Source: Flavobacteriales bacterium UBA979 (GTDB lineage: Bacteria; Bacteroidota; Bacteroidia; Flavobacteriales_D; Sanyastnellaceae). Taken from it: DNA of 5,404 nt. The notes beneath the pieces are model-generated. The model had not been told where the DNA came from and ran no database searches. It saw only the letters and a program-made list of their open reading frames with translations. The stretch is taken from contig DBBR01000047.1 in NCBI GenBank assembly GCA_002292325.1, positions 3,495 to 8,898 on the forward strand, in the 5' to 3' direction. A program made the position numbers and the translations under genes. Numbering within the stretch: position 1 is the stretch's first letter; each line of letters begins with the position of its first letter. Shown piece by piece: positions 2 to 5,294 of this stretch.

Positions 2-295
2 TACATCATTTTGCTCTATAGCAAAATCGGTCTCGGTCTCATTTCCATCGCCTTTATCCTGGGTTTTTTGCTGAGCCTGGTGCTCGGTCCTTTGGTCTTA
101 GAAGGAGTTCTTTCGCAGATTGGGTTAGGAGATGAAGCAGATCAAATCTCTTTTTCAATCAGCCGACCTCTCATAATTGCCTTGGCCTTTATCGCATTCC
201 CAATTACGGTGGTCTACTTCACGCTCCAATCGAAATTGAGCCAATCAAAACCAGGCGATTTAATCTATTCACGCGATAAAACAACCCAGCAATGA
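2..295 (+). CDS. small two-helix membrane protein, 5' end probably outside the window
   Basis: I do not recognise this family. The frame is open from base 2, and a TTG at 11 is the only early start inside the window. It has no visible ribosome binding site and the residues before it (YII) continue the hydrophobic character, so the true start is probably upstream and about 97 C-terminal residues are seen. Two hydrophobic stretches are clear. The first covers roughly residues 8-34, with a core like LGLISIAFILGFLLSLVLG. The second covers 55-76, with a core like PLIIALAFIAFPITVVYF. A short acidic loop (GDEADQ) separates them, and a hydrophilic basic tail with several Lys and Arg follows. By the positive-inside rule the tail would be cytoplasmic; this is inference. 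The stop overlaps the start of the giant surface protein by four bases (ATGA), suggesting co-translation. It could be a complete small protein or the end of a longer transporter-like protein. Confidence 0.7.
   Translation, partial: YIILLYSKIGLGLISIAFILGFLLSLVLGPLVLEGVLSQIGLGDEADQISFSISRPLIIALAFIAFPITVVYFTLQSKLSQSKPGDLIYSRDKTTQQ
292..295 (+). promoter_or_regulatory. ATGA stop/start overlap coupling membrane protein to surface protein
   Basis: The ATG of the giant gene (292-294) shares bases with the TGA of the upstream gene (293-295). No Shine-Dalgarno motif precedes it; the upstream stretch is A-rich, as is usual in Bacteroidota. Termination-reinitiation is the likely mode of starting translation. 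Confidence 0.7.
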
Positions 296-357
296 AAACC
301 ACATCGCTACTCCTCGTTGCTGCAGGATTACTCTCTTTTCACCATGCGGGCAATGCA
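292..357 (+). other. Sec signal peptide of the giant surface protein
   Basis: Residues 1-22 show a short basic start (Lys2), a hydrophobic core TSLLLVAAGLL and a polar end HHAGNA. Cleavage is likely after Ala22, leaving Gln23 as the mature N-terminus. There is no lipobox, so this protein is released from the membrane by signal peptidase I and passed to the T9SS rather than lipidated. Confidence 0.85.
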
Positions 358-3300
358 CAAACGGAGCTCACCCTCTGTGACAATGATTCGCTATCTCTGG
401 TTGCAACAGAACTGGACGAAGGACTTGACTCCCTCCTCTGGACCTGGAATTCCGGAGCTGTTCCGTCTGTATGGGAGGCCGAGCTGACTGATTCAGCATT
501 GACCATCGCATCCGCCTCGGCTGCCATGAGCGGCATCTATGAATTGGTGCAGTACACCACGGCAATCTCGGATACCGATACCGTCGTAGTTTCGAGCATT
601 GCAGCGGCGTGGAATGTCAGCGTTCTTGACCCTTTCCAGCTCATCGTTCCGGATCCCACACTCAGCATTTGTCCCGAGGTCGATTCAACAACCTTTTACC
701 CCATTCTCACCACGGGTGGATCGGGTGGGGTCCAATGGAATTGGTTCATCCAAACATCCGATTCCACCTACGCCTGGGACAACCCCAATTCCCCCGCTAT
801 TGCCATCAATGCCGCTTCCGACACAGCAAGCTATTTCGCAGTTGCTATGGACGCACAAGGGTGCGGAACCATTGAAGGCCCCCTCCTCAACTTGGACATC
901 CTAGATGGCATCGAAGCAGGCACACTATCTGCCTCGGGCTCAGGAAATGATACCGGATTCTGCTTCGGAAGCGATGTCACCGTGACATCAACACCACCTT
1001 TTACAAACACCGAATATGACGTGCTTTGGAATGTCCAAGACGAATCGGGCAACGCCATCCAATCACAACAAAGCGGTGATTTGGGAATCACCATCGAATC
1101 CCTCGATGCTGCGGCAACCGTGAACGTTACCTACACAACCGATGACGGTTGTTCTGCTGTAGAGCTCGCTACACTCGAAATCCCGGTCCTACCCGCGTTA
1201 TCGAATGTCACCATTGCATGGGATGAAGCCTTGAGCACGCTCTGCTACAATACTGCTCCAAGTACCGCTTCTTTGGTGATCAACCCCAATGAATTCACCA
1301 CCATGGATTGGCAATGGAATGCGAACAACGGGCAAGGTAGCGAACCCATTTTTGGCGCCACCACCACCACCATAACGCCCTCCGCGCTGACAGAGACCAC
1401 CTCCTTCTCATTGAGTGGTGTATCAGCAGATGGTTGCGGCGCGGTCAACTCCAACTTACTCATTGCCGAGGTGTTTCCTGAACTTGAGGCGCCAGTCATA
1501 GATTTTGAATTCATCGGGGAGAATGCCCCCATCTGCTTCGGATCGGAGACGCCGACCCTGGAATTGGTGACTCCTCCCGCGACAGGCATGGAGTTCACCT
1601 GGCAATGGGAGGCGGAGGGCACCGCCCTGGCAGGCCAAAACGCCCCTGTTCTTGAGCCGGTGGTATTGGAGACCACCACAGCATTTCAGCTCGCTGCAAC
1701 GTCCACAGATGGATGTGGAACTGTCACTTCGAATGCGGTTCCCGTTGAGGTGCTCCCGGAGATAACTCCCGGTGCCTTGAGTGCATCTACGGATACAACC
1801 TGTTATGGATCACCTGCCTTTTTGACTTCTACGACGCCCACGGGAGCCGATGGCAATTTTGATGTGAATTGGTTTTACGGAACAGGGTCCTCCCTTAATT
1901 ACCTGCCCACATGGCAAGGACTCGAACAAACGCTGCCAAATGCTATTGAATCATTCTCAACGTACGTCGAATACGAATCGCAATACGGATGTGGAACCGT
2001 TACCTCGGACACAATTAATGTTCATGTCTACGAAGCGCTTGAGTCTGGAATGCTTTCCGCATCACAAAGCATTTGCTTCGATACCTCACCTGACCCGCTT
2101 ACTCTGAGCTCGGCTTCGGGTGGAAATGGCGTTTTCGAATACACATGGCAGATTTTGACTGAAGGGGCAAGTGAACCAAGTACAGGAGCCTATGGCACGA
2201 TATGGAGCCCGGGGCCTCTGCTCAGCACCATGGAGGTGAGCGTTGTAGCTGAAAGCACTTCAGGATGCGGATCCGTTGAGTCGAACACGATCGAAATCTA
2301 TGTTTTCGAAGAACTGATTGCCGGAAGCATTACCACGTTGGAGTCTCCCATTTGCTATGGATTCACATCAGCATTTAGCGCCAATGATGCTCCGTCTGGA
2401 GAAAACTTGAGTTATCTGTGGTGGCTGGAAGAGCCTGGTGGGGATTTCACAGAAATACCTGGAGAGGTCAGTTTATCTGGATTTTCTCCAAGTCTCAATT
2501 CAACTTCAAACTTGGCCATTACATACACCAGCGAGGATGGTTGTGGGACTGTCTGGTCCGAGCCTTTACAAATTGAAGTGCTACCACAATTACAAGCACC
2601 TGAAATCATTCGCGAGGGTTCGACTGAGACAATCTGTTACGGATATACCGGGCCAACAATTTCGAATGCCCTACCCGCAACAGGTGGAACGGAATCCTTC
2701 CAATACGGTTGGCAGATTCAAAACTCTCTTCAGAATTGGACCACCGTTTCCACCAACCCGGACTTCTTCACGTTTGGCATCATGACGGAAACAACCTCTG
2801 TCCGCTTGGTGGCTAACTCCAATGCAGGCTGCGGGGTGGTTATCAGCAATGAATTGACCATTGAGGTTTACGACGAAATCACATCCGGCACAGCGAGTGG
2901 AGCGCAAACCCTTTGCTTTGGCGAAGAGGCCGATGCTCTATCCACCACGAACACAATTGGTGCCAACGGGCAATTCAGCTACCAATGGTATGCTGGGGCT
3001 CCACCCTCACCTCTGGACGCTGAAACAAGCCAAACACTGATTCCAGGTCCACTCTACGAAACCACAACCTTCTTCGTAGTCGCCGCGAGCGACATTGGTT
3101 GTGGGGCTGTCACCAGCAATGCTATAGAAGTTGCCGTTTGGGACGAACTAATTGCAGGCTCCCTCTCCGAGGGCAATGCAGACACGTTATGTTTTGGCAG
3201 CAGCGCTGTGTTCAATGCCAATCCTGAAATCAGCGGCAATGACATGATTTACCAATGGTATTTGGGTGAGTACATCGAAAACCAGCCTCCGGAAACGTTG

Positions 3301-5076
3301 ACGCCAATAGCCGGCGAAAACGGCTTAGCCTTGAACATCGATGATTTCAACGTCAGCTTTTGGTTAAGTCTGGAGTACATCTCTCCGTTCGGGTGTGGAA
3401 GTGAATTTGCGGTGCCCGTTTATTATCACGTCTTGCCGGAGATGCAGTCTCCGACAATCATTCTCGAAGGCGGAATCCAGGACACTTCGATTTGTTTCGG
3501 CGCTACACCTCCGGCCATGATTCAAACGTCTGGTGCAACTGGAGCAAACGGAGATTTCAGCTATGTTTGGGAAATCAGTTCCAATGGGGACGCCTGGAGT
3601 CTACTCGATTTTGATACGGATACCATTCAACTGGCAGAGTTACTCTGGAGCGATAACTTCATCCGAAACCTCGGAACCAATCCATTGTGCGGCAGCGTCG
3701 CTTCGGAGAACCTGTTCGTTCACGTCTACGATGAATTTGTACCCTCAGCCGCTGGAACATCCCAGTCAATATGCTTTGGATCGACTCCTGCTGAATTGGA
3801 AGGCCTCGGTGCACAAGGTGGAGGTGAAGAATACACGTATCAGTGGGTGGAACTTCTCGTCGGCGACACGCTGGAAATATTAGAAGCCACAGAAACCGTC
3901 TGGTCCGGTCCTGAACTTTATTCCGATGCCGCCTACATGCTCTACAGTGAGTCTTCAGTGGGCTGTGGCGCTGGGTTCAGTGACGTCATCACCATCAACG
4001 TAGCCGACTCCATGATGGCTGGTACAATCCAGATTGATGGACCCGCAGAATACTGTGCTGGTGAAACGGTCTCGTGGACAGCAATCGACGCAACGGGAGG
4101 GCTTGAAGGATTCTCAACGAATTGGTATTATTCAAACCCTGACGACTTGGATTGGACGGTATTTGCTGCCGACATGCTCGATGCAACAACGCCAACATTG
4201 TTAGACTCCACGCTCGTCTACTTGGAATACATCAATGCATGTGGAACGGTCGTGTCCGATGAAGCATTGGCCATCGTAAACCCACTGCCATCTCTCCCTT
4301 CTGCAGTTGGAAGCATCGAACCATGCATCAACAGCTCGGACAACCTCATCGAAGCCTTTCCATTCGATCCGGGATTGAACTACCAATGGGAATCGACCAC
4401 ATCCAATGCCGAAATAACCAGCGGAGAAATGGGGCATCAGATCCTATTCAATGTGGACTCATCGGCCGCTGAATTGAATTTAACATTCCTGTTAACCTTG
4501 GAAAATGATTCGACGACGTGCCTCAACGACACCGTCTACCAAATCACCACGTCCTCAGACGTGGCCCCAAGCCTCGGCGAAGTCATCAAGAAGCCCGGTA
4601 TCAATATTTTGGTGTGCAGTGACAGCTCGGACTGCGCTCAATACAGCTGGGGCGCAATCAACATTGCAACTGGTCAGGAGGAGCTCTTTGAGAATGGCGA
4701 TGAACAGTACATCTTCATCGAAGACTTGGATCCGGAGTCTTGGTATTACTTCGTTGACGTCTGGTACGATTGCGGTGACGGCCCCGGCTGCATCACACGC
4801 ATGTATTACAATTACGAGCCCTTCTTGGAGATAGTGGAAACCGAGTCGCTTCACTTTTCAGTGTATCCAAATCCCGCACACGACCAGCTTAATATCACCT
4901 CGAGCAGCATGTGGACACGTGGATGGGTTACGAATCCAATGGGGCAACGCATTTTGAATTTCACGATGAATTCAAAATCCCTCGATGTAAGTACATTGCC
5001 CGCTGGCCTTTACCTCCTTACCCTTCAATCTGCCACAGATAAAATTTCTACTCGAGCCTTCATTCGAGAACAATGA
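292..5076 (+). CDS. giant secreted multi-module (Ig/PKD-like) protein with T9SS C-terminal sorting domain
   Basis: A 1594-residue protein exported by Sec and then by the type IX secretion system, probably to the cell surface or medium. Residues 1-22 are a signal peptide (Lys2, hydrophobic core, cleavage likely GNA|QT). Residues 23-114 form a degenerate first module. Modules 1-14 start near residues 115, 207, 303, 398, 491, 583, 675, 767, 863, 953, 1051, 1149, 1241 and 1335. Each typically carries [IL]C[FY]G, then an aromatic-x-W strand such as YQWY, then GCGxVxSN and a V-x-V linker. The two cysteines sit 60-68 residues apart in all 14 modules, so an intramodule disulfide is likely. Residues 1424-1519 form a different domain with Cys 1442, 1448, 1494 and 1500. 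Residues 1520-1594 are the sorting domain (VYPNPA, LDVSTLPAGLYLL). Such CFG/CG modules recur in large Bacteroidota surface proteins, often annotated as adhesin-like. No enzymatic domain is visible. The ATG overlaps the upstream stop (ATGA), which supports this start. No frameshift or stop interrupts the frame. The mature protein is almost devoid of basic residues before 1433. Binding target is unknown. Confidence 0.95.
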   Translation: MKTTSLLLVAAGLLSFHHAGNAQTELTLCDNDSLSLVATELDEGLDSLLWTWNSGAVPSVWEAELTDSALTIASASAAMSGIYELVQYTTAISDTDTVVVSSIAAAWNVSVLDPFQLIVPDPTLSICPEVDSTTFYPILTTGGSGGVQWNWFIQTSDSTYAWDNPNSPAIAINAASDTASYFAVAMDAQGCGTIEGPLLNLDILDGIEAGTLSASGSGNDTGFCFGSDVTVTSTPPFTNTEYDVLWNVQDESGNAIQSQQSGDLGITIESLDAAATVNVTYTTDDGCSAVELATLEIPVLPALSNVTIAWDEALSTLCYNTAPSTASLVINPNEFTTMDWQWNANNGQGSEPIFGATTTTITPSALTETTSFSLSGVSADGCGAVNSNLLIAEVFPELEAPVIDFEFIGENAPICFGSETPTLELVTPPATGMEFTWQWEAEGTALAGQNAPVLEPVVLETTTAFQLAATSTDGCGTVTSNAVPVEVLPEITPGALSASTDTTCYGSPAFLTSTTPTGADGNFDVNWFYGTGSSLNYLPTWQGLEQTLPNAIESFSTYVEYESQYGCGTVTSDTINVHVYEALESGMLSASQSICFDTSPDPLTLSSASGGNGVFEYTWQILTEGASEPSTGAYGTIWSPGPLLSTMEVSVVAESTSGCGSVESNTIEIYVFEELIAGSITTLESPICYGFTSAFSANDAPSGENLSYLWWLEEPGGDFTEIPGEVSLSGFSPSLNSTSNLAITYTSEDGCGTVWSEPLQIEVLPQLQAPEIIREGSTETICYGYTGPTISNALPATGGTESFQYGWQIQNSLQNWTTVSTNPDFFTFGIMTETTSVRLVANSNAGCGVVISNELTIEVYDEITSGTASGAQTLCFGEEADALSTTNTIGANGQFSYQWYAGAPPSPLDAETSQTLIPGPLYETTTFFVVAASDIGCGAVTSNAIEVAVWDELIAGSLSEGNADTLCFGSSAVFNANPEISGNDMIYQWYLGEYIENQPPETLTPIAGENGLALNIDDFNVSFWLSLEYISPFGCGSEFAVPVYYHVLPEMQSPTIILEGGIQDTSICFGATPPAMIQTSGATGANGDFSYVWEISSNGDAWSLLDFDTDTIQLAELLWSDNFIRNLGTNPLCGSVASENLFVHVYDEFVPSAAGTSQSICFGSTPAELEGLGAQGGGEEYTYQWVELLVGDTLEILEATETVWSGPELYSDAAYMLYSESSVGCGAGFSDVITINVADSMMAGTIQIDGPAEYCAGETVSWTAIDATGGLEGFSTNWYYSNPDDLDWTVFAADMLDATTPTLLDSTLVYLEYINACGTVVSDEALAIVNPLPSLPSAVGSIEPCINSSDNLIEAFPFDPGLNYQWESTTSNAEITSGEMGHQILFNVDSSAAELNLTFLLTLENDSTTCLNDTVYQITTSSDVAPSLGEVIKKPGINILVCSDSSDCAQYSWGAINIATGQEELFENGDEQYIFIEDLDPESWYYFVDVWYDCGDGPGCITRMYYNYEPFLEIVETESLHFSVYPNPAHDQLNITSSSMWTRGWVTNPMGQRILNFTMNSKSLDVSTLPAGLYLLTLQSATDKISTRAFIREQ
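634..4560 (+). repeat. 14 tandem diverged Ig/PKD-like modules within the giant surface protein
   Basis: The modules are 90-98 residues apart, measured between the second cysteines at 191, 287, 382, 475, 567, 659, 751, 847, 937, 1035, 1133, 1225, 1317 and 1410. The first cysteines are at 127, 224, 318, 415, 504, 595, 688, 782, 875, 967, 1068, 1161, 1255 and 1345. Every module has a central Trp flanked by aromatics (for example FTWQW, FEYTW, FSYQWY, YTYQW) and most end in GCGxVxS. Module 11 has LCG and module 13 has ACG in place of GCG; module 14 has TTCLND. At DNA level the copies differ at many positions and no long identical stretch was seen, so the duplications are old. The fold assignment (beta-sandwich) is inferred from the spacing and the central Trp/Cys pattern, not computed. 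Confidence 0.9.
2038..4293 (+). repeat. higher-order repeat: modules 6-13 in a three-module period
   Basis: Modules 6, 9 and 12 begin with a short lead (LESGMLSASQSIC, ITSGTASGAQTLC, FVPSAAGTSQSIC) and share a GPL or GPELY turn. Modules 7, 10 and 13 begin LIAGS, LIAGS and MMAGT. Modules 8 and 11 begin LQAPEI and MQSPTI. The linkers before them rotate in the same order: VYEA/VYDE/VYDE, then VFEE/VWDE/VADS, then VLPQ/VLPE. The gap from the second Cys of one module to the first Cys of the next also rotates: 28, 29, 31; 28, 30, 33; 28, 30. The period is 278-288 residues, about 850 bases. Module 14 follows in the third slot but is degenerate. Module 4 (LEAPVI, gap 33) is of the third type, so the order before module 6 is less regular. 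Confidence 0.75.
4561..4848 (+). other. four-cysteine domain between the repeats and the sorting tail
   Basis: Residues 1424-1519 break from the repeat pattern. The stretch has paired cysteines at 1442/1448 (CSDSSDC) and 1494/1500 (CGDGPGC), a YSWG segment and an aromatic-rich strand ESWYYFVDVWY, ending TRMYYN before the sorting domain. The first lysines since the signal peptide (1433 and 1434) occur here. It may be another beta-sandwich that positions the sorting tail. I recall comparable CSD...CGDG...TRxYYN segments ahead of Bacteroidota T9SS tails, but that is memory rather than a search result. Confidence 0.55.
4849..5073 (+). other. T9SS type A C-terminal sorting domain
   Basis: Residues 1520-1594 contain the hallmarks of the type A (Por secretion tail) domain. 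These are VYPNPA at 1524-1529, an NPMGQ turn near 1549-1553, LDVSTLPAGLYLL at 1564-1576 and a basic C-terminus with Lys1584, Arg1588 and Arg1592. In this family the domain is recognised by the outer-membrane translocon and usually cleaved, after which the protein is released or attached to surface lipopolysaccharide. Confidence 0.92.
4951..4978. repeat. perfect 10-base inverted repeat, 8-base loop, inside the sorting-domain coding region
   Basis: attttgaatt at 4951-4960 is the exact reverse complement of aattcaaaat at 4969-4978, separated by tcacgatg. The stem has only one G:C pair per arm, so the hairpin is weak. It lies inside codons for about residues 1554-1562, about 95 bases before the end of the gene. 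No T-run follows, so it is not a standard terminator. Confidence 0.6.
5073..5076 (+). promoter_or_regulatory. ATGA stop/start overlap coupling surface protein to lipoprotein
   Basis: The ATG at 5073-5075 overlaps the TGA at 5074-5076 of the giant gene. A short purine run (gagaa, 5066-5070) precedes it but is a weak ribosome binding site. It is the same junction type as at 292-295, which supports a single coupled operon. Confidence 0.7.
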
Positions 5077-5294
5077 CATTCCGTTCCCTCACCCCCTTCA
5101 TAACCTTCGCTTTCCTCCTCTCCCTTACCGCCTGTGAATCCGAGGCGGAGAGGCAAGCGCGTGAGGCCGTGGAGGAACAAGCTCGGGTCGAAGCCGAAGC
5201 GGAGCGTTTGCGATTGGAGGAAGAGCGACGCATCATCGAAGAAGCGCGCCGAAATTCAATCATGGCCATGGGCTGCTTTTTCAGACCGATTTAA
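5073..5294 (+). CDS. small lipoprotein with charged helical/coiled-coil body
   Basis: A 73-residue protein of unknown function. Residues 1-20 are a lipoprotein signal (Arg4, hydrophobic core PFITFAFLLSL, lipobox LTA|C), with Cys21 as the lipidated residue. The residues after Cys (ESEAE) are acidic. In Bacteroidota, acidic stretches just after the cysteine can act as a surface-export signal, so outer-leaflet display is possible but unproven. Residues 24-60 are almost entirely Glu, Arg, Ala, Gln and Leu and should form one long amphipathic or coiled-coil helix. The last residues, from N61 on (NSIMAMGCFFRPI), are unlike the rest and include Cys68. Related-looking Bacteroidota lipoproteins are, as I recall, often longer after the helix, so this copy may be a short form or a truncated one. 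It starts in an ATGA overlap with the surface-protein gene, which supports a shared envelope role. Its 3' end appears to overlap a convergent frame by 39 bases. Confidence 0.75.
   Translation: MTFRSLTPFITFAFLLSLTACESEAERQAREAVEEQARVEAEAERLRLEEERRIIEEARRNSIMAMGCFFRPI

Follow-up and report, generated by a model that had tools for sequence, protein, structure and literature searches.

Scarcity of lysine and arginine in a predicted type IX-secreted Ig-like array and in much of the predicted cargo of its genome and order

The 5,404-nucleotide stretch of DNA from Flavobacteriales bacterium UBA979 analyzed here (the window) encodes, on the forward strand at 292-5076, a protein of 1,594 residues that consists mainly of predicted immunoglobulin (Ig)-like modules and is almost devoid of lysine and arginine. 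Selection probably keeps these two residues out of the part of the protein that is likely to lie outside the cell, and much of the predicted cargo of the type IX secretion system (T9SS) in the same genome and order is similarly poor in them. The effect, selection against positive charge, is seen directly in sequence comparisons; its cause we infer.

Exclusion of lysine and arginine from the array

Residues 23-1432 of the array protein (1,410 residues) contain no Lys, 3 Arg, and 4 His, whereas base composition by codon position leads to an expectation of 39.7, 61.6, and 29.7, respectively; acidic residues in the same stretch amount to 75 Asp and 107 Glu. Lysine occurs at positions 2, 1433, 1434, 1562, and 1584 and at no others, and arginine at positions 774, 838, 1125, 1503, 1543, 1553, 1588, and 1592. 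The original prediction, made from the window alone, that no lysine lies between Lys2 and Lys1433 and that the mature part has three arginines, is exact in both counts and coordinates. An artefact of base composition is ruled out by the codon-position expectation and by the normal flanking genes on the same contigs.

Thirteen of the 15 modules are without any basic residue. Module 9 had been described as one of these, but this depends on the numbering, as the present boundaries (residues 762-854) place two of the three arginines there. Similarly, the last 160 residues had been considered normal in Lys and Arg, which applies only to the T9SS tail (residues 1516-1594), with a near-normal combined Lys and Arg content (K+R) of 7.6%, and not to residues 1425-1515 (3.3%); K+R over residues 1435-1594 is 4.4%. 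The neighboring genes, also said to use both residues normally, encode a membrane-protein tail of 97 residues that includes 4 Lys and 2 Arg and a lipoprotein-like product of 73 residues that has 11 Arg but no Lys.

The metagenomic bin of this genome contains two versions of the locus, on contigs C16 and C67, which are 88% identical in protein and 91% identical in upstream DNA and probably represent two strains in one assembled genome. Between the two arrays, none of the 111 single-base nonsynonymous differences alters Lys/Arg status, where 12.4-13.8 such changes are expected for transition weights of 1-8 (Poisson probability 1e-6 to 4e-6), and none of all 175 amino-acid differences involves Lys or Arg. 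For three genes located upstream in this strain pair, counted over in-frame codons after the true gene starts, 14 of 66 differences alter Lys/Arg status (11.4 expected), so that array and flanking genes differ with a Fisher p of 4e-7. The same pattern extends to more distant sequences: substitutions gaining Lys or Arg number 0 of 333 in ortholog P0002 (76% identity) and 1 of 576 in ortholog P0003 (58%), and the three array arginines are retained in both. Because no strain difference alters Lys/Arg status and the orthologs show almost no gains, the exclusion of these residues from the array is an active, continuing constraint.

Following a putative signal peptide read by eye from the translation (residues 1-22, including Lys2; 292..357), Gln23 is the presumed mature N-terminus, in agreement with the glutamine rule for Bacteroidetes (PMC5837995). 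The 15 predicted Ig-like modules (residues 23-1424; 358..4563) contain all three mature-part arginines and, in 14 cases, a cysteine pair; four stretches of the array match Ig_7 (PF19081; 82.8 bits against a curated cut-off of 27.3), and a confident model (pLDDT, the predicted local score, of 86.9) predicts a beta-sandwich for residues 398-680 only. A conserved C-terminal domain, delimited by an alignment of 11 homologs and by composition (residues 1425-1515; 4564..4836), carries Lys1433, Lys1434, and Arg1503, and a T9SS type A sorting domain extends from residue 1524 to the end (4861..5073), with matches to PF18962 (E 2.1e-9; 38 bits, cut-off 27) and TIGR04183 (27.3 bits, cut-off 23). These features point to a predicted T9SS type A cargo that would be displayed at the surface as an Ig-like array; the protein would be secreted, anchored at the surface, and relieved of its tail after export. 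Lys1434 is invariant in the 11 homologs, and the domain that contains it, placed before the sorting tail, marks the array family.

Predicted T9SS cargo of the genome and its relatives

Tail searches of the genome gave 52 type A hits, of which 49 were scored initially (one was not fetched and two were too short) and 48 in later counts, and 30 type B (CHU_C) hits, of which 29 were scored (one not fetched). Open reading frames (ORFs) were started at the first ATG, GTG, or TTG that follows a stop, and a crude hydrophobicity script assigned the signal and membrane classes. Left out of the control proteins are the type B cargo, a masked ORF, and the copy on C67, which is truncated. Between signal and tail, median K+R is 2.95% for type A (n=48) and 0.91% for type B (n=29), compared with 8.85% for proteins that are signal-peptide-like but carry none of the listed tails (n=59) and 10.2% for proteins without a signal or membrane segment (n=135). 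Values below 1% are found in 26 of the 77 predicted cargo proteins, among which the array protein ranks 12th. Longer runs than its own exist in other type A cargo, namely a Lys-free run of 1518 residues in a protein on contig C37 (1430 in the array protein) and a Lys/Arg-free run of 936 residues in one on contig C32 (771 in the array protein).

We can therefore reject the idea that the avoidance is special to the array protein, as the original prediction had held: the count across the T9SS substrates of the genome came out largely on the opposite side, and the trait is widespread in this cargo and belongs to the secretome. The earlier interpretation is partly supported: the unusual composition exists, chance does not account for it, and selection acts on it, but its specificity fails.

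Depletion in the cargo follows the order Lys, Arg, His (log2 of -2.7, -1.9, and -0.95). Cargo proteins have less Lys and Arg and more Asp and Glu than the proteins of the same genome without a signal or membrane segment, but the acidic residues rise only slightly, from 12.9% to 15.1% (type A) or 14.4% (type B). Given the small size of this gain next to the fall in median K+R, the main change is a loss of positive charge, and its removal outweighs the addition of acids.

The T9SS tails have a median K+R of 8.0%, and 43 of 48 are richer in these residues than the cargo to which they belong. Since the tail retains this content, the constraint does not act on passage through the T9SS. It hardly acts on Sec export, as signal-peptide-like proteins without the tail mostly keep their Lys and Arg. 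Surface cleavage of the tail is described for Porphyromonas (PMC4560394), so the constraint fits the part that stays outside. It had been proposed that the avoidance keeps export free of charge barriers; positive charges would then hinder translocation by Sec or the T9SS, and the trait does follow the T9SS route. Nevertheless, this cause is disfavored and appears very improbable, given the K+R of the 59 signal-peptide-like proteins without a tail, the charged tail taking the same route, and type A cargo from outside the family with a median of 6.1% and values up to 11.0%.

An economy of nitrogen, in which nitrogen-rich side chains are avoided in residues lost by export, seems just as improbable. 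Side-chain nitrogen does fall from 0.35 to 0.19 per residue in the cargo, and marine extracellular proteins contain less nitrogen (PMC11928666), but Asn, Gln, and Trp together make up 11.05% of the cargo against 9.60% of proteins without a signal or membrane segment, Asn and Trp being increased and Gln slightly lower.

Four further Lys/Arg-poor proteins of the genome are without a T9SS tail hit (C91:14820, C43:14305, C2:51112, and C19:5747). By eye, all four end in a dockerin-like DxDGDG...DLL...FG pattern, possibly another sorting or anchoring tail.

For the comparison across clades, we took one best-scoring cargo per genome and counted, at most, the roughly 500 residues that precede its tail. 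Type B cargo (54 loci, one of them too short; L230-L233 were not scored) shows a median K+R of 0.40% in the family (6 genomes), 0.70% in the order outside the family (24 genomes), and 3.23% in other orders of the class (23 genomes), a contrast with a Mann-Whitney p of 2e-6. Thus, the scarcity is clade-wide for type B cargo. For type A, 30 loci of the family have a median of 2.8%, and 28 loci from the phylum, including one of the same order, have a median of 6.1% (L173 was not scored). The array protein itself is patchy: of 101 genomes in the family, 3, its own included, have a match at E 1e-20 or better; a relative in the genus, G016, has an array ortholog but lay outside this sample. Two order relatives (L235 and L255) have type B cargo with 33-34% acidic residues and 0-1.6% K+R over about 500 residues, an acidity well above that of all the others.

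The host is likely to be marine, judging from the origins of two relatives, G016 in the genus and G052 in the family, which appear to be linked to a 2018 North Sea bloom (PMC10877868) and the Tara Oceans East African Coastal province (PMC5769542), respectively. With cytosolic acidity as a stand-in for habitat, stretches of 20 kb or less had too few genes to bear on salinity: 18 of the 20 genomes yielded 2-9 usable ones, and the other 2 not enough.

Possible causes of the constraint

The reading we favor, with somewhat more than even confidence, is selection against positive charge on the part that stays outside, most likely because exposed lysines and arginines would act as sticking points for polyanions in seawater, such as the anionic lipopolysaccharide of the cell itself or the acidic and sulphated polysaccharides of algae. 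A string of Ig modules free of Lys and Arg, with about -0.13 charges per residue, would remain soluble and extended and would adhere only where contact is intended. A broader reading, to which we give slightly less than even confidence, is that the whole order maintains an outside free of positive charge as a non-stick rule of surface chemistry, with strong, continuing selection purging the T9SS-exposed part but neither the tail, which is disposable, nor other proteins. If so, the trait would be a rule about not sticking to polyanions rather than a property of one protein: a Bacteroidota clade with relatives in the sea would keep its T9SS-exposed proteins almost free of positive charge, which would show what seawater demands of surface proteins and would provide a sequence-only marker for the exposed class.

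Several observations weigh against the favored reading. K+R is uneven in the cargo, from 0 to 10.8% in type A and from 0.2 to 8.4% in type B, and it is below 4% in 6 of the 59 signal-peptide-like proteins without a tail, a class assigned by the crude script; moreover, the T9SS tails may keep their Lys and Arg for recognition reasons of their own. Among 55 Ig_7 homologs, in which K+R ranges from 0.4% to about 10%, 33 have at least 2%, so the Ig_7 fold does not demand exclusion. In these homologs, median K+R is 0.85% where Asp and Glu reach at least 9% (n=19) and 3.46% below that level (n=36), as a plain adaptation to salt predicts.

Salt adaptation is the strongest rival, and we consider it close to an even prospect. 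Exposed proteins would be acidic and poor in Lys and Arg for hydration and solubility in seawater, with a nearly salt-free cytoplasm, and T9SS cargo would be the most exposed class. Consistent with this, extracellular proteins from the sea are richer in acids and poorer in Arg and Lys than their non-marine counterparts (PMC11928666), secreted proteins are those that differ most in marine-freshwater pairs (PMC6706942), the relatives have marine-looking origins, and the Ig_7 homologs poorest in Lys and Arg are the acid-rich ones. On the other hand, the acid gain is small next to the loss of Lys and Arg. Of the 22 homologs with K+R below 2%, 14 are acid-rich but 6 are also poor in acids (below 5%), showing that exclusion is possible without acid gain. 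Salt adaptation may be the same thing as the non-stick rule seen from another side, and for this reason the confidence placed in the two overlaps.

Net charge lies between -0.123 and -0.136 per residue in seven homologs of the array, five of which are only 26-34% identical, while the acids themselves shift position. Conservation of Asp and Glu is 0.53 and 0.55 in P0003 (average 0.59) and 0.73 and 0.71 in P0002 (average 0.76), and no Asp or Glu is invariant in columns 23-1370 of the 11-homolog alignment. Because the charge is steady and the acids move, it is the bulk charge that matters in the array, not acidic sites. These data bear on calcium clamps, in which Ca2+ held by acids between the modules would make the rod stiff, as happens in the extenders of RTX adhesins. 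Such extenders are strings of Ig-like or beta-sandwich domains with few Lys and Arg, those few being conserved (PMC7493085), and SiiE is among the Foldseek matches. Since Asp and Glu do not exceed the average residue in conservation, site-specific stiffening by calcium, a form of the stiffening by divalent cations that had been suggested, gains no support and is unlikely, although calcium ligands provided by the backbone or by unconserved sites may exist.

Another role for a polyanionic Ig string would be a coat that concentrates cations such as ammonium, a model taken from the surface layer (S-layer) of Nitrosopumilus, which is Ig-rich, poor in Lys and Arg, and ammonium-binding (PMC11153153); in the array, Lys is 0% and Arg 0.2%. 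We regard this as unlikely, if slightly less so than calcium clamps: charge does not rise toward the cell-proximal end of the array (rho -0.21, p 0.46), six of seven homologs show no significant trend and only P0006 shows a rise (p 0.027, uncorrected), and the array is patchy in the family.

The loss of Lys and Arg might also confer resistance to trypsin-like enzymes in the water. Lys and Arg are the most depleted residues, and a long uncleaved chain would result. Tightly folded Ig modules, however, are protease-resistant anyway, and His is depleted too. Uncleavable Lys/Arg-Pro pairs are not enriched, with 34 of 749 Lys and Arg preceding Pro in type A cargo, compared with a Pro content of 4.8%, and 2 of 90 in the 18 poorest proteins. 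Trypsin resistance, which had been put forward as a cause, therefore receives no support, and we hold it to be improbable.

The predicted blind spot of trypsin-based proteomics, by contrast, holds in silico and is broader than had been stated. Tryptic peptides of the mature array protein would measure 752, 64, 287, 308, 70, 40, 10, 9, 22, 4, 4, and 2 residues, and peptides of 7-35 residues would cover 2.6% of the mature protein, as opposed to 73% after cleavage at Glu and 78% after cleavage at Phe, Tyr, and Trp. At most one tryptic peptide of this length lies between signal and tail in 15 of the 48 type A proteins and in 11 of the 29 of type B, but in only 3 of the 59 tail-less signal-peptide-like proteins and 1 of the 135 without a signal or membrane segment (pooled, 26 of 77 cargo and 4 of 194 other proteins). 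Should the order-wide reading hold, trypsin-based proteomics would hardly see about a third of the cargo, which would partly explain why such proteins may be missed.

Related systems and the locus

The closest known relatives are the T9SS type A cargo proteins of PF19081 ("Ig-like domain CHU_C associated"), which share the order of Ig_7 modules followed by a Por_Secre_tail but differ in their wide range of K+R. The marine acidic secretomes described in PMC11928666 and PMC6706942 show the same trend to less Lys and Arg and more Asp and Glu with exposure, and the direction of the loss in marine secreted proteins is thus already published; the cargo studied here departs from this general trend in that a third of it is below 1% K+R, a sharp step separates it from other exported proteins, and the tail is spared. 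Near-total exclusion, the contrast with the tail, the substitution test, and near Lys/Arg-free T9SS secretomes were not met in a literature search that covered titles and the starts of abstracts, with most subscription journals outside it.

The S-layer protein of Nitrosopumilus maritimus, which binds ammonium and contains 1.7% Lys, 2.2% Arg, and 10.9% Asp (PMC11153153), resembles the array in being Ig-rich, poor in Lys and Arg, and strongly negative, and its marine host would have a counterpart in the likely habitat here. It forms an archaeal lattice and has 3.9% K+R against 0.2%, and the array protein shows no significant charge gradient. RTX extenders (PMC7493085) are likewise tandem beta-sandwiches with few Lys and Arg, the remaining ones being conserved; their Ca2+ ligands are conserved acids, whereas the acids of the array are not conserved in position and its sorting tail belongs to the T9SS. 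In structure, the best VIA match is the GhpA grappling hook of Aureispira (9flw and others), but the unrelated Ig strings of titin and CEACAM6 tie with it, being less than 1 Z apart; a sequence search of solved structures gave one weak Ig match and one chance match, and GhpA was absent from them. The function of GhpA is not transferable from the fold.

On the 5' side, the window begins with the end of an FtsX-like ABC permease, read in frame (2..295, forward strand), whose stop overlaps the start of the array gene; contig C67 has this permease in full length, with a match to PF02687 that just reaches the cut-off. On the 3' side, the start of a short ORF of 73 residues (5073..5294, forward strand), lipoprotein-like by eye, overlaps the array stop. 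TssR is a type VI secretion protein. A type VI system as the partner of the TssR-like gene found at this locus was rejected, as VipB was not found in 22 genomes of the genus; the TssR-like protein may here work with the ABC transporter and the T9SS array. On contig C67 (L045:8-4775), the genes 5' of the array encode a TssR-like VWA protein, an ABC ATPase, and the FtsX-like permease, and the same gene order is present in Crocinitomicaceae EAC32 (L143:4922-9734).

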